Shown here in pieces: positions 1,635 to 5,667 of a stretch of DNA of 35,746 bases. Position numbers and translations under genes: made by a program. The notes beneath the pieces were generated by a model. The model was not told the DNA's origin. It searched no databases and was given only the letters and a program-made list of their open reading frames with translations. The stretch lies in the NCBI GenBank assembly GCA_005883355.1, contig VAXG01000105.1, positions 1-35,746 of the forward strand, in the 5' to 3' direction. How positions within the stretch are numbered: position 1 is the first letter of the stretch; the number at the start of each line of letters is the position of its first letter. The stretch is from Actinomycetota bacterium. Its GTDB lineage: Bacteria > Actinomycetota > Thermoleophilia > Gaiellales > Gaiellaceae.

Positions 1635-2678
1635 ATGGCCCAGGCACCGCCGCCCACGGGGTCGCGGATTCAGCAGCTCGGCGATCGTCTGATCGTCCAC
1701 TTCCGTCCACGGCGGTCGTGGGGAGCACTCACGTTCCTCGCCTTCTGGCTGACGTTCTGGACTGCCGGCGGGATCGCCGCATTCACACGGTTGCTGAATG
1801 CCGACTGGAACGAGCGCGTGTTCCTCATCGTGTGGCTCTGCTTCTGGGCGTTCGGCGAGTCCGCCGCGGCGGGAGTCATCGCGTGGCAGCTCTTCGGTGG
1901 CGAGTTGCTGCTGGTGACTCCGCAACAGATCGAGGTGCGCAAGCAGATCGGACGATTCGCGAAGACGAAGCTGTACGAAGTCCCGCTCGTGCGCGATCTC
2001 ACGGCCGCACGCGCCCCGAGTGACGAAGACGAACGGCCACGCAAGGACTTTTGCATCCAGTTCGCGTACGACGGCGGGACAGTGCGTGTCGGGGAGGGGA
2101 TGAGCGAACGGGAAGCCGAGCACATCGCGGCGACCCTGTCAGCGCGGATCCGTCCGCGCACCTGGTGGGGAGAAGAGAGCCAGGCCGAGCCCTACGACGA
2201 TCCCTTCGAGGCGGCCGCTCCTGCAGCGCCACGACGATCACGGCGGCTCGGCATCCTGATGCAGATCGTGTTTCCGCTCATCGTGCTGGCGGCAATCGCA
2301 ACCCTTCTCGTGGCGGGCCGTCGCGACTCCCATCAGAGGCCGGCCGCGCAACCACCGCCAGCCGACGCGTCCCCGCGCGGGCCGGTCTGGCCCCCGACGG
2401 AAGATCAATTCGCCAGCATGAGGGTTTTGGCATCGGCGACGACGTTCTCCTCGCTCATGTCTGCCAAGACCACGGTCTTGAGCCCGCCCGTCTGTAGGCC
2501 GCACCCGACCTGGTCTGAGTGGACCTGTACCGTCACCGCGCGGCCCACACTGCCTCCGTTTGCGGGGCGGACGCTGCGCTACAGGTGCTCGGCTGTCACC
2601 ACGCCTCAGCCCGGCGGCGGGCCGGTCGGCCGGGGCGTTCTCTGCGGGCCGGACCCACCTCCGTCGCTCGGAGGCTGA
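1635..2678 (+). CDS. Membrane protein of unknown function
   Basis: This 347-aa protein has hydrophobic segments at about 31-51 and 62-84, then a soluble stretch (about 90-200, beginning ELLLVTPQQIEVRKQIG) that resembles a bacterial PH-like fold following two membrane helices, as in YdbT/YdbS-type proteins; that similarity is inference. A third hydrophobic segment at 206-227 leads into a Pro-rich linker and a C-terminal part with four Cys. It lies 76 bp after the sigma gene on the same strand. Its stop is 4 bp from the 3' end of tRNA-Ala, which faces it. Function unknown. Confidence 0.75.
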   Translation: MAQAPPPTGSRIQQLGDRLIVHFRPRRSWGALTFLAFWLTFWTAGGIAAFTRLLNADWNERVFLIVWLCFWAFGESAAAGVIAWQLFGGELLLVTPQQIEVRKQIGRFAKTKLYEVPLVRDLTAARAPSDEDERPRKDFCIQFAYDGGTVRVGEGMSEREAEHIAATLSARIRPRTWWGEESQAEPYDDPFEAAAPAAPRRSRRLGILMQIVFPLIVLAAIATLLVAGRRDSHQRPAAQPPPADASPRGPVWPPTEDQFASMRVLASATTFSSLMSAKTTVLSPPVCRPHPTWSEWTCTVTARPTLPPFAGRTLRYRCSAVTTPQPGGGPVGRGVLCGPDPPPSLGG

Positions 2679-3181
2679 AGAGTGGAGCCAGCCGGGATCG
2701 AACCGGCGACCTTCCGGATGCCATCCGGACGCTCTCCCAGCTGAGCTATGGCCCCGCGACGGCCAAGTGTAGCGGCGAATTCGAAGTCTTTCGCCCAGTT
2801 GAGGCCAGCCTTCTGATTGTTCCGCGCCGGAGCAAGACGAAGCTGGATTGCGCTCCGCTTGCCGAACGTTTCGAGCGGTAGGAAATAGCAGCGATCCAAG
2901 TCGGAGCAGTAGGCGGCGAACGCGTCGATCTCATCAGCTGAATAGAGCCTCCGCAGAAGGCCATCGCAGCTTCTTCGAGTGGAATAACACCGCACGACGA
3001 TGACATCGCCATGTCGTGGGGCCCACTTGCATTGCACGCGCACGAGGCGCGAGCCGACCTCGAAGATCATGTCATAGCGACCTCCTTCCGCTACCGGCGT
3101 GTAAACGCTTATGCCGAGCTTGATCGCGGCATGAACAATCGCTGTCTCCGCCACCGCTCCCTTCTGATCACTAGTGAGCAT
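2606..3181 (-). CDS. PD-(D/E)XK homing-endonuclease-like protein (I-Ssp6803I type) running through tRNA-Ala
   Basis: The frame from ATG 3181 gives 191 aa. Residues 1-142 form a compact nuclease-like domain: GAVAETAI (Glu12), GGRYDMIF (Asp37) and VQCKW (Gln50, Lys52). From memory, the homing endonuclease I-Ssp6803I uses E11, D36, Q49 and K51, so the spacing matches exactly, including the unusual Gln. I-Ssp6803I has about 150 aa, close to the 142 found here. There is no stop codon at the end of the domain. From Gly143 the frame reads the complete tRNA-Ala (GAIAQLGER...VAGSIPAGST) and ends at 2606 after a low-complexity tail inside the convergent membrane gene. The true product may be about 142 aa plus a tRNA-derived tail, or truncated by tRNA processing. 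An upstream in-frame extension exists, but the conserved part starts at MLTSDQKG. Confidence 0.75.
   Translation of the reverse strand: MLTSDQKGAVAETAIVHAAIKLGISVYTPVAEGGRYDMIFEVGSRLVRVQCKWAPRHGDVIVVRCYSTRRSCDGLLRRLYSADEIDAFAAYCSDLDRCYFLPLETFGKRSAIQLRLAPARNNQKAGLNWAKDFEFAATLGRRGAIAQLGERPDGIRKVAGSIPAGSTLQPPSDGGGSGPQRTPRPTGPPPG
2658..2674. terminator. Possible bidirectional terminator hairpin
   Basis: CCTCCG-TCGCT-CGGAGG forms a 6-bp stem with a 5-nt loop. It lies within the last codons of the membrane-protein gene and 9 nt beyond the 3' end of tRNA-Ala on the other strand. There is no clear T-tract, so this is only a candidate. Confidence 0.35.
2683..2755 (-). tRNA. tRNA-Ala (anticodon GGC)
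   Basis: A complete 73-nt cloverleaf is seen. The acceptor strands are GGGGCCA and TGGCTCC with the G3-U70 wobble pair that identifies alanine tRNAs, and the discriminator is A. The D arm is GCTCAGCTGGGAGAGC, the anticodon stem TCCGG/CCGGA with loop ATGGCAT (anticodon GGC, reads GCC), and the T loop TTCGATC. CCA is not encoded. The preceding nuclease ORF is on the same strand and in frame with it. Confidence 0.97.
2766..2771 (-). promoter_or_regulatory. Putative -10 element of tRNA-Ala
   Basis: TACACT on the minus strand lies 10 nt before the first base of mature tRNA-Ala. No convincing -35 hexamer is visible at 16-18 bp. If real, this promoter is embedded in the last codons (AATLGRR) of the nuclease gene, and transcription would start only a few bases before the tRNA. 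A TAnnnT motif stands at nearly the same distance (9 nt) before tRNA-Leu. Confidence 0.45.
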
Positions 3182-3214
3182 GTTGTCGAAGCTAGCAACG
3201 ACATCGGCTGGGCC

Positions 3215-3231
3215 GTGTCCTGTTTGGACAC
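3215..3231. promoter_or_regulatory. Inverted repeat GTGTCC-N5-GGACAC between divergent nuclease-like genes
   Basis: A perfect 6-bp inverted repeat lies in the 86-bp region between the starts of the homing-endonuclease-like gene (minus) and the HNH-like gene (plus). It could be an operator or a hairpin; nothing in the window tells which. Confidence 0.3.
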
Positions 3232-3267
3232 TTGCGGTGCGCGAACTTCGTACGCACGCTCGAACGC

Positions 3268-3735
3268 ATGTCGATGCGTCCCGCACTCGTCGCGATTGCG
3301 TTGCTGCTGCTCGCGATCGCGATCGTCTCGCCGCACGGCTCCTCGTCGAAAAGCCCGTACCATGCCGACATCGCACGCACGCCCGGCGTGCTCAATCCCG
3401 ATGTCACGCAGGCGAACATCGACTCCACCATCTGCGTGACCGGCTGGACCAAGACGATCCGTCCGCCGACCTCGTACACGAACGCGTTGAAACAGAAACA
3501 GATGCGTGAATACGGCGTCGGCGGCTTGGCCTCCGACTACCAGGAGGACCACCTGATCAGCCTCGAGCTCGGCGGGCATCCCACCGATCCGCGGAATCTC
3601 TGGCCCGAGCCCTACCCACGCGCGTCCGAGGTCGACTCGATCGAGAACGAGCTCAACGCCAAGGTCTGCGCGAAGGACCTCTCGCTGGACGGCGCACAGA
3701 GGAAGGAGTCCGAACTCAAACACACCGACGGGTAG
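3268..3735 (+). CDS. Secreted HNH-like protein
   Basis: The 155-aa product from ATG 3268 starts with a signal peptide or anchor (MRPALVAIALLLLAIAIV). The mature part contains YQEDHLISLELGG...DPRNLWPEP (about 91-115), which has the layout of an HNH/beta-beta-alpha-metal core: Asp94-His95, a GG turn, then Asn110 before LWPEP. The usual last metal-binding His is not obvious, so nuclease activity is uncertain. Two Cys (56 and 134) may form a disulfide outside the cell. Starts at 3232 or 3274 are alternatives; no strong ribosome site separates them. It diverges from the homing-endonuclease-like gene and is followed 22 bp later by the glycosyltransferase. Confidence 0.7.
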   Translation: MSMRPALVAIALLLLAIAIVSPHGSSSKSPYHADIARTPGVLNPDVTQANIDSTICVTGWTKTIRPPTSYTNALKQKQMREYGVGGLASDYQEDHLISLELGGHPTDPRNLWPEPYPRASEVDSIENELNAKVCAKDLSLDGAQRKESELKHTDG

Positions 3736-3757: not shown

Positions 3758-5320
3758 TTGGGCCCATCCGCGAGCGGAGACGATCAGATCCACGCACGGA
3801 GCGTTCTCGTCCCCGGGCCTGCGCTCCCGCTCATCGGGCTCACCGCGCTGCTCGGCGCACGCCTCGTGCCCGACGTTGCCGGGAAGCCGCTGCACGAAGA
3901 CGAGGCCGTCGCCGGGTTGATCTCGGTCCGACCGCTGGGGGACCTGTTGCACACCGTCGTCCTCGATCGCGGCGGAGCGCCGCTGCACTTCGTCCTCGCC
4001 CACTTTGCACTGGCGATCGACACAACTCCCGCAACGCTGCGCTGGGTCTCGGTCGTGTTTGCCCTCGCTACGGTTCCGCTCTGCTACGACCTGGCGCGAC
4101 GCATCGCGGGACGACCTGCAGGGCTGACCGCGGCTGCGCTCGCAGCGATGTCGCAGCTCCTGCTGATCTACGGGACGTTCGGGCGGATGTACTCGCTCTT
4201 TGCGTTCGCGAGTGCCCTTGCGGCCGATCTGTTCATGCGCGCACTCGAACGGCCCCAGCGACGTCCGGCGCTCGCCGCCGCAGTAGCGGCACTGCTCCCG
4301 CTCACCGTGCATCCATTCGGCGCATTCGTGTTCGCCGCCGAGGCAGCCGTCGCGCTCTTTCTGTGGCGCGGCCGCGCGCTCCGCGCGGCGCTACCCGTGC
4401 TCGCGGTGGCGCTCCTCTCCGTACCACTCCTCCTCGCCGACCTCCGCCTCTCCGAGAGGTACGGCCCAACGGTGGCCCACAAGCTCGACAGCGGTACTTC
4501 GTCCGGGCCCGCCACTCTGCAGGCGCTCGGCGGTGCGGCCGGGGGGCGCGGCGCCACGCTGGCGCTCTTCATCGCGCTCGCAGCAGTTGGGATGCTCACG
4601 CTCGCGCGCCGGCGGCCGGTGGTCGCGGCGTTTGCATTCTTGGCACTCGCGGTCCCCCCGCCTGCCCTGGCAATCGCGAGCGCGGCAGGTCTCTTCAGCG
4701 ACCGACTCGGCCCCCGTCACCTCATCTTCATGCTGCCGCTCTGGATCGCACTCGTCGCGACCGGCGCGACCCGCCTCCTGGTGTTGCTGCCCTCGAGACC
4801 GCGGACCGCTGCGTTCGCCGCGATCGTCGTCGCCGCAGCACTCGCTCCGAGCGCCGTCTCCGAGCCGCGAACGATGCCGACAGGGGCGGAGAGAGCCGTC
4901 GCCGCACCTGCAGCGTGGCTGACGAAGGAGCTCGCGCCCCACGACGTGCTGTATCCGTACTCGCCCGTCTTTTTCGCCGCACTCCCTGCCGCGAAGGAAG
5001 CGCGCGCATACTCACGCGAACCGGTTGCGCTTTCCCGCGCCGCGAAACGCACCAGGGCAACGCACGCGGTCTTCATCTCGGTCCCGCTGCGCGCTCCGAT
5101 CAACCGGGAAGCGTTGCGGCAAGCGGGCGTCCGGTTCCGGGCGTTTCCCTCGTGGCTCATCCTCGAGTCACGAGGCCCGTTCGCGAATGGAATTGCCGCG
5201 CTCGAATCGGCTGTCGCGCTCCTCCGGACCGTCATCCCGCTCGTCAACGAGACGGGCGCGCGCGCCTACCTCGAACAGATCCGCCACACAGCGTGTCTCG
5301 CGCTGCGGAGGCCGTGCTAG
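3758..5320 (+). CDS. GT-C-type membrane glycosyltransferase
   Basis: A long polytopic protein (about 520 aa from TTG 3758) with roughly ten hydrophobic helices in its first 370 residues and a soluble C-terminal third. Near the N terminus, KPLHEDEAVAGL carries the Asp-Glu pair (about 48-49) in the first extracytoplasmic loop that is typical of GT-C enzymes (dolichyl-phosphate-mannose mannosyltransferase/ArnT-like, PMT_2 group). DRGGAPLHFVLAHF shortly after it fits the same family. Such enzymes move a sugar from a lipid-phosphate carrier onto a protein or lipid outside the membrane; the substrate here is unknown. The TTG start is uncertain. Its stop overlaps the stop of rsfS on the other strand by 3 bp. 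Confidence 0.75.
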   Translation: MGPSASGDDQIHARSVLVPGPALPLIGLTALLGARLVPDVAGKPLHEDEAVAGLISVRPLGDLLHTVVLDRGGAPLHFVLAHFALAIDTTPATLRWVSVVFALATVPLCYDLARRIAGRPAGLTAAALAAMSQLLLIYGTFGRMYSLFAFASALAADLFMRALERPQRRPALAAAVAALLPLTVHPFGAFVFAAEAAVALFLWRGRALRAALPVLAVALLSVPLLLADLRLSERYGPTVAHKLDSGTSSGPATLQALGGAAGGRGATLALFIALAAVGMLTLARRRPVVAAFAFLALAVPPPALAIASAAGLFSDRLGPRHLIFMLPLWIALVATGATRLLVLLPSRPRTAAFAAIVVAAALAPSAVSEPRTMPTGAERAVAAPAAWLTKELAPHDVLYPYSPVFFAALPAAKEARAYSREPVALSRAAKRTRATHAVFISVPLRAPINREALRQAGVRFRAFPSWLILESRGPFANGIAALESAVALLRTVIPLVNETGARAYLEQIRHTACLALRRPC

Positions 5321-5667
5321 CCGGCTGCGACCTCGACGGGCGGCGCATCGCCCCAGAGGTCTTCGAGCCGGTAATACGCACGTGCGTCGGGCGTGAAGAT
5401 GTGAAGCACGACGTCCAGATAGTCGGCGACGATCCAGGAGGCCTCGCGCTGGCCGTCGACCGAGCTCGGCAGGATTCGCACGTCGTGCTTCATCCCGCTG
5501 TGCACCTCGTCGTAGATGGCGGCAGTCTGACGGGGGTTCTGTCCCGTGCAGACGACGAAATAGTCCGTGTAAGAGCAGGCTGGCCGCATGTCGAGGATGA
5601 CCACGTCCTGGGCCAGCTTGTCCTGGGCCAGGCTGGCGATGCGGCGGGCTTGTTCGAGAGACGTCAG
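5317..5667 (-). CDS. rsfS: Ribosome silencing factor RsfS
   Basis: RsfS binds ribosomal protein L14 and blocks subunit joining when translation must slow down. The family core is clear: DVVILDMRPACSYTDYFVVCTG, the QTAAIYDEV helix, then EASWIVADYLDVVLHIFTPDARAYYRLEDLWGDAP. The core needs about 21 residues before the first GTG (5604). In the same frame these read TSLEQARRIASLAQDKLAQD, the usual RsfS N terminus, and an in-frame TAG lies further upstream. No ATG or GTG exists between that stop and the core, so the likely start is CTG at 5667, with GGAG about 11 nt before it. This gives 116 aa, normal for the family. It follows nadD, as in many bacteria. Confidence 0.9.
   Translation of the reverse strand: MTSLEQARRIASLAQDKLAQDVVILDMRPACSYTDYFVVCTGQNPRQTAAIYDEVHSGMKHDVRILPSSVDGQREASWIVADYLDVVLHIFTPDARAYYRLEDLWGDAPPVEVAAG

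Follow-up and report, generated by a model that had tools for sequence, protein, structure and literature searches.

A nuclease gene that runs without a stop codon into an intact tRNA-Ala(GGC) gene is best explained as encoding a free-standing (intronless) homing endonuclease that targets the anticodon arm of tRNA genes. We give this reading a probability of about two in three; cleavage, homing, resistance and RNase P processing are the steps that we infer. A nuclease of a homing family was found outside any intron or intein, beside its presumed target and at a site with clean empty counterparts. The gene and its surroundings in the window, i.e., the whole stretch of 35,746 nucleotides that was analyzed, are as follows.

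2756..3181, minus strand: intact PD-(D/E)XK nuclease gene with 142 codons ahead of the tRNA; conserved domain at about residues 5-135; active site E12, D37, Q50, K52
2606..2755, minus strand: in-frame continuation of the reading frame across the tRNA (by translation), with a GAIAQLGER... tail and a TGA stop at 2608..2606
2683..2755, minus strand: tRNA-Ala(GGC), intact (ARAGORN; Rfam 62.6 bits)
2713..2729, minus strand: anticodon stem-loop TCCGGA-TGGCA-TCCGGA, non-canonical and fully paired; putative recognition region
2766..2771, minus strand: predicted tRNA promoter -10 element TACACT (consensus match), within the last nuclease codons (A-T-L), 10 nt before the tRNA
5317..5604, minus strand: rsfS homologue, named by resemblance (tblastn synteny)

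Protein family and active site

A first-pass annotation had described the gene product as a PD-(D/E)XK protein with the active-site spacing of I-Ssp6803I, and the family, structure and alignment searches agree with this description. Residues 5-135 of the window protein matched the Pfam family PDDEXK_5 (PF11645; E=1.5e-30; 106.4 bits vs. a curated cut-off of 26.1) and the sole credible sequence match in the PDB was I-Ssp6803I (2OST; E=3e-10). The AlphaFold2 model of the protein (pLDDT 92.9) also had 2OST as its best Foldseek match (TM 0.75, E=6e-11). The active-site residues proved to be conserved when tested across an alignment of 85 relatives: Glu12 was kept in 77, Asp37 in 84, Gln50 in 85 and Lys52 in 84. 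The nuclease proteins are under purifying selection, since pairwise dN/dS values of close pairs were 0.09-0.28.

No group I intron was found in the window (Rfam library search) or at 12 searched loci of relatives elsewhere in the phylum. As a positive control, the same Rfam library detected the group I intron beside the Synechocystis orthologue of I-Ssp6803I (L199). A contig scan with I-Ssp6803I as query yielded one cyanobacterium. Residence in an intron is a feature of I-Ssp6803I itself and not of the Pfam family PDDEXK_5. A search for plasmid carriage of the window nuclease gave no match, and no close viral relatives of the window protein were found in IMG/VR with the protein as query; distant phage relatives were detected by tblastn.

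Recurrence beside tRNA genes

The first-pass annotation had also suggested that the arrangement is recurrent, which was borne out. PF11645 proteins are present in 106 of the 399 genomes of the class (about a quarter), and 81 of the 85 full-length copies analyzed are located no more than 100 nt from a tRNA gene, compared to a chance expectation of approximately 1% (a rough estimate from about 50 tRNA genes per 3 Mb genome). Homologues situated mostly away from tRNA genes, an outcome that the annotation had allowed for, were thus not what was observed. One of the four exceptions is at a contig end and another at 146 nt; in the other two, a second copy separates the nuclease gene from the tRNA gene. 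The six partial copies are all 182 nt or less from a tRNA gene. Most commonly the nuclease gene is directly 5' of tRNA-Ala(GGC) on the same strand. Copies linked to tRNA-Ala(TGC) lie either 5' of it or tail-to-tail with it, those linked to tRNA-Thr(TGT) are head-to-head with it, and some copies are beside tRNA-Arg(CCG) or tRNA-Tyr(GTA). Elsewhere in the phylum, all 18 checked loci that passed the family cut-off are beside or near a tRNA gene, two of them at about 460-500 nt; the adjoining genes were Arg(TCT), Ala(GGC), Thr(CGT), Thr(TGT) and Tyr(GTA), with Pro(GGG) at some distance. tRNA genes also neighbor the distant relatives in five phages, which is weaker evidence because phages have tRNA clusters.

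Each nuclease clade is tied to a single tRNA (Ala-GGC, Ala-TGC, Thr-TGT or Arg-CCG), because in a tree of 86 proteins 5 changes of tRNA label are required vs. 25 for shuffled labels and the Ala(TGC), Thr and Arg groups each form one side of a branch. The same tree follows host families rather loosely.

Several loci had unusual arrangements. A tandem pair of nuclease copies precedes a single tRNA-Ala(TGC) at L076 and L078. Nuclease matches lie 107-183 nt 5' of an atypical tRNA-Tyr(GTA) at L088, L089 and L090, and similar loci in other classes (L180, L182, L183 and L185) are located before a Tyr-Thr-Met tRNA group. The ORFs of the phage relatives in L201 (phage My1) and L204 (phage Sf-FR1) end within the following tRNA (Ile and Val, respectively), like those of the bacterial loci.

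Empty sites and the junction with the tRNA

An rsfS homologue is the usual upstream neighbor of tRNA-Ala(GGC) in the class (tblastn synteny); in the window, two extra genes on the opposite strand (3232-3735 and 3758-5320) separate it from the nuclease. The product of the first of these (plus strand) is a secreted-looking protein with sub-threshold resemblance to Endonuclea_NS_2, and the gene is kept beside tRNA-Ala in the genus. The comparison with relatives that lack the nuclease, which the first-pass annotation had proposed, revealed clean empty sites. The distance from the end of rsfS to tRNA-Ala(GGC) was 25-78 nt without the nuclease (9 loci) vs. 447-563 nt with it (22 loci), so the insert is roughly the ORF alone. 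In eroded copies (L161 and, from the same genus as the window, L153), all that is left beside the tRNA is the final 26-29 residues. High-GC DNA contains many long spurious frames, and a random open frame running into a tRNA could be annotated as a gene by artefact, but the Pfam match, the conserved catalytic residues, the empty sites and the recurrence refute this explanation, to which we assign almost no weight.

Codon 143 (GGG) of the window ORF falls on the first base of tRNA-Ala(GGC) at 2755..2683 (translation and ARAGORN), and the claim that a stopless nuclease ORF reads in frame through the tRNA was confirmed, the frame ending at 2608..2606. The exactness of the junction, which had seemed hard to explain by chance, is real in the window but is partly a coincidence: 21 nt separate the end of the conserved domain from the tRNA, this interval contains a tRNA-type promoter (-10 TACACT) and leader, and the spacing between nuclease and tRNA varies among loci, falling into classes of 0-15, 20-32 or 80-92 nt. 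A fixed insertion at the first base of the tRNA is ruled out by this variable spacing, and other clades are head-to-head or tail-to-tail with their tRNA. The suggestion that the element rebuilds its target at its own 3' end was not supported. The related suggestion that the element targets tRNA genes survives in modified form; the association with tRNA genes holds, and the probable target is the intact neighboring tRNA gene with its altered anticodon stem.

Among the 60 full-length genes located 5' of tRNA-Ala(GGC), 39 read in frame through the entire tRNA, 11 stop at U8-A9-G10 of the tRNA, 4 stop later within it and 1 runs off its contig. A stop before the tRNA was found in only five genes, four with an 80-92 nt spacer and one broken. 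The remaining 55 have none, and the ordinary stop codons that the first-pass annotation had thought might be found in homologues are not the rule. With the stop codon placed within the tRNA or past it, RNase P processing, if it acts on the transcript, would remove this codon, and the tRNA-like end of the protein follows from the absence of an earlier stop. A role for the tRNA-encoded tail as a functional part of the protein is unsupported, given the genes that end at U8-A9-G10 (11/60) or have their own stop (5/60). Two of the three reading frames enter the tRNA (46 and 14 of the 60 loci); the third is absent though also open.

The tRNA promoter and the 3' end of the nuclease gene

The tRNA promoter is predicted from its consensus to overlap, or lie inside, the 3' codons of the nuclease gene. 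In genomes without the nuclease, GCTA(C/G)ACT is located about 10-16 nt before tRNA-Ala(GGC), and its equivalent in the window is at 2771..2766 (codons A-T-L). When the nuclease abuts the tRNA (0-15 nt), this native promoter stretch is gone and a TANNNT is present instead within codons 126-131 (the V-N-W-A motif), built from A/T-ending codons such as GTA, CTA and GTT. The embedded -10 in the conserved C-terminal motif was detected in 27 of 28 abutting genes vs. 1 of 55 others (p=1.5e-19). These others comprise genes with a native leader (0/28), with a spacer (0/4) or located elsewhere (1/23), and the single non-abutting case is a contig-end member of the abutting type. Homing endonucleases of phage T4 also carry embedded promoters of downstream genes, which are thought to favor their retention (PMC2988022).

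Anticodon stems of the linked tRNAs

The anticodon stems of the linked tRNAs are altered yet remain paired. In the window's family, the 37 linked tRNA-Ala(GGC) genes have between them 26 different anticodon stems of 6 bp, all but one of them fully paired, compared to 16 stems among 53 unlinked genes, 30 of which have TCTGGC/GCCAGA in common. The Simpson diversity of these GGC stems was 0.977 in linked vs. 0.671 in unlinked genes (permutation p=5e-5), and three bases of the T-stem did not differ between linked and unlinked genes (p=0.30). The usual GGC stem was depleted in linked genes (4/37 vs. 30/53; p=8e-6) and the usual CCTGCT stem of tRNA-Ala(TGC) was absent from linked genes of two other families (0/12 vs. 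37/52; p=5e-6), both values being from Fisher tests that ignore shared ancestry. Within genera, pairs had the same anticodon stem in 3.7% of cases when both members had the nuclease vs. 41% when neither had it; the corresponding values for the T-stem were 45% and 50%. Permutation of labels within genera gave p=0.013 for the anticodon stem and p=0.20 for the T-stem, and permutations within the genera of single families gave p=0.06-0.08. The overall diversity of GGC stems was not raised with the nuclease in families f8, f10 and f11 (0.935 vs. 0.904), four linked GGC tRNAs in f1 retain the usual stem, and the test of Thr(TGT) stems showed a weak trend at most (12 distinct stems among 13 linked genes vs. 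29 among 67).

All 63 linked Ala(GGC) tRNAs keep G3-U70. Because this pair is the established identity element of tRNA-Ala, changes in the anticodon stem need not cost the tRNA its identity. In the window's genome and in nearly all of the others, whole-genome searches found no GGC copy besides the linked gene. In two linked tRNA-Ala(GGC) genes (L020 and L083, from G220 and G238), C replaces the universal U at position 33 (CCTGACCGGCAGTCAGG).

The stem differences could also have arisen by drift or mutagenic break repair, without conferring resistance, if the genes are former homing endonucleases that were kept for some other reason or by chance. The eroded copies at L153 and L161 and the several families in which overall stem diversity is equal whether or not the gene is present fit such a history, but the low dN/dS, the conserved active site, the restored pairing of the stems in every case and an effect seen in two isoacceptors and only in the anticodon stem argue against it, and we consider it unlikely. 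A homing endonuclease that still acts on the anticodon arm remains the preferred reading.

Damage-type sequences upstream of the nuclease genes

Two types of sequence were enriched upstream of the 60 Ala(GGC) nucleases. CGAAC-N4-GTTCG (with at most one mismatch) precedes 27 of them, compared to a background of 1.9%, and [CT]GTC-N12-TAnnnT precedes 26, compared to a background of 0.6%. The latter resembles the actinobacterial RecA-independent damage promoter. The former is very probably the LexA box in these genomes because, in G260, it is found ahead of lexA, dinB and dnaE2 as well and, in G017, ahead of lexA, a Y-family polymerase homologue and dnaE2, all of these genes being recognized by sequence. 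The region upstream of the window's own nuclease gene contains no exact copy of CGAAC-N4-GTTCG.

At L005, L010, L012, L019, L040 and other loci, the LexA (SOS) box overlaps the -10 of the nuclease gene. A near-identical 19-nt stretch (GGACACGGCCCAGCCGATG) was present at 3195-3245 of the window (minus strand) and upstream of L045, L054, L064, L073, L007 and L018; it precedes Ala-type and Thr-type nucleases of the window's family alike.

Toxins that are SOS-controlled and cleave tRNAs are known among the bacteriocins. The damage-responsive promoters, like the anticodon-arm change in the linked tRNA, would therefore also fit a tRNA nuclease (a toxin or defense effector) that acts on tRNA molecules rather than on genes, with the altered-stem tRNA as its immunity partner. 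Such an enzyme would find no sensitive target in its host, however, as the linked tRNA is nearly always the sole isoacceptor copy. Both sequence and fold place the nuclease closest to a DNA homing endonuclease, it is accompanied by neither a secretion gene nor a partner gene, and clades tied to several tRNA genes and insertions of the ORF only suit homing better. We regard a tRNA nuclease as quite improbable and favor a homing endonuclease that acts on tRNA genes.

A model for homing at tRNA genes

In the proposed mechanism, cells without the nuclease would have their tRNA gene cut by the enzyme in its anticodon arm. The cut site would be near-palindromic because the anticodon arm is an inverted repeat, as with I-Ssp6803I in tRNA-fMet. 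Repair from incoming donor DNA would then copy the nuclease together with the donor's altered, linked tRNA, whose changed stem would shield the resident gene from cutting and would be tolerated by AlaRS, alanine identity resting on G3-U70. No intron would be needed because RNase P, in place of splicing, would sever the nuclease message from the tRNA 5' end; the same cut would remove the stop codon and limit expression. The host would tolerate the nuclease because RNase P trims it and the linked tRNA resists it, and the nuclease gene would be hard to lose because the tRNA promoter lies in or next to its 3' end.

These steps can be combined into a more specific proposal, which we hold tentatively and at somewhat less than even odds. 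The nucleases may be natural cleave-and-rescue elements of bacterial chromosomes, in which a damage-induced endonuclease cuts the anticodon arm of the only tRNA-Ala(GGC) gene (or the Ala-TGC, Thr, Arg or Tyr gene) and spreads with a linked tRNA whose stem is recoded by compensatory changes, with RNase P replacing splicing.

Comparison with known systems

The nucleases share their Pfam family, fold (TM 0.75), active-site residues and tie to a tRNA gene with I-Ssp6803I (PDB 2OST), which is encoded by a group I intron in a cyanobacterial tRNA-fMet gene. The target of I-Ssp6803I reportedly lies in the anticodon region, as Bonocora and Shub are said to have found in 2001. In contrast to I-Ssp6803I, there is no intron here and the gene lies outside the tRNA gene, upstream, with the tRNA promoter and stop codon common to both; the tRNAs also differ (Ala, Thr, Arg and Tyr), and the anticodon stem of the linked tRNA is altered. 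Free-standing homing enzymes usually cut hundreds of bases away, whereas I-Ssp6803I cuts at its own insertion site. The cutting distance proposed here would be intermediate between the two.

SegB of phage T4 is intronless, has its gene among those for the phage tRNAs and cleaves inside tRNA genes, and the coding regions of segG, segA, segE, mobB and mobC embed promoters of downstream genes, with transcript processing suggested to limit expression (PMC2988022, PMC13096335). SegB and other free-standing enzymes thus resemble the nucleases described here in being intronless and embedding promoters. Unlike these GIY-YIG or HNH enzymes of phages, the nucleases here are PD-(D/E)XK proteins of bacterial chromosomes; each clade has its own tRNA, the neighbor is a single essential-type tRNA gene and the promoters are of the damage type. 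HNH homing endonucleases within mycobacterial and phage tRNA arrays have been proposed to move those tRNA genes (PMC5966550, PMC6582537); they too are encoded among tRNA genes, but they belong to a different nuclease family and to horizontally acquired arrays rather than to the host's own single tRNA gene. A further precedent is available (PMC3984707). In the open-access literature, the scope of our search, no published description of the PF11645-tRNA linkage was found.

Homing endonucleases were previously known in tRNA genes with introns, and intronless ones mainly from phages. The arrangement described here would represent a third lifestyle in an essential RNA gene, in which the nuclease is at the boundary, RNase P separates the two products and the tRNA promoter is encoded or overlapped by the nuclease, making removal costly. 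The target stem would be free to change, alanine identity lying elsewhere. If correct, this would account for the unusual turnover of anticodon stems in some bacterial tRNAs and for many database proteins with tRNA-encoded tails, and would provide a natural counterpart of recoded-rescue gene drives. In engineered cleave-and-rescue drives, a nuclease attacks an essential gene and is linked to a recoded, resistant copy of it. The element proposed here would, by analogy, have the same outline, but it would be natural and bacterial, and its rescue would be the resident tRNA gene itself.
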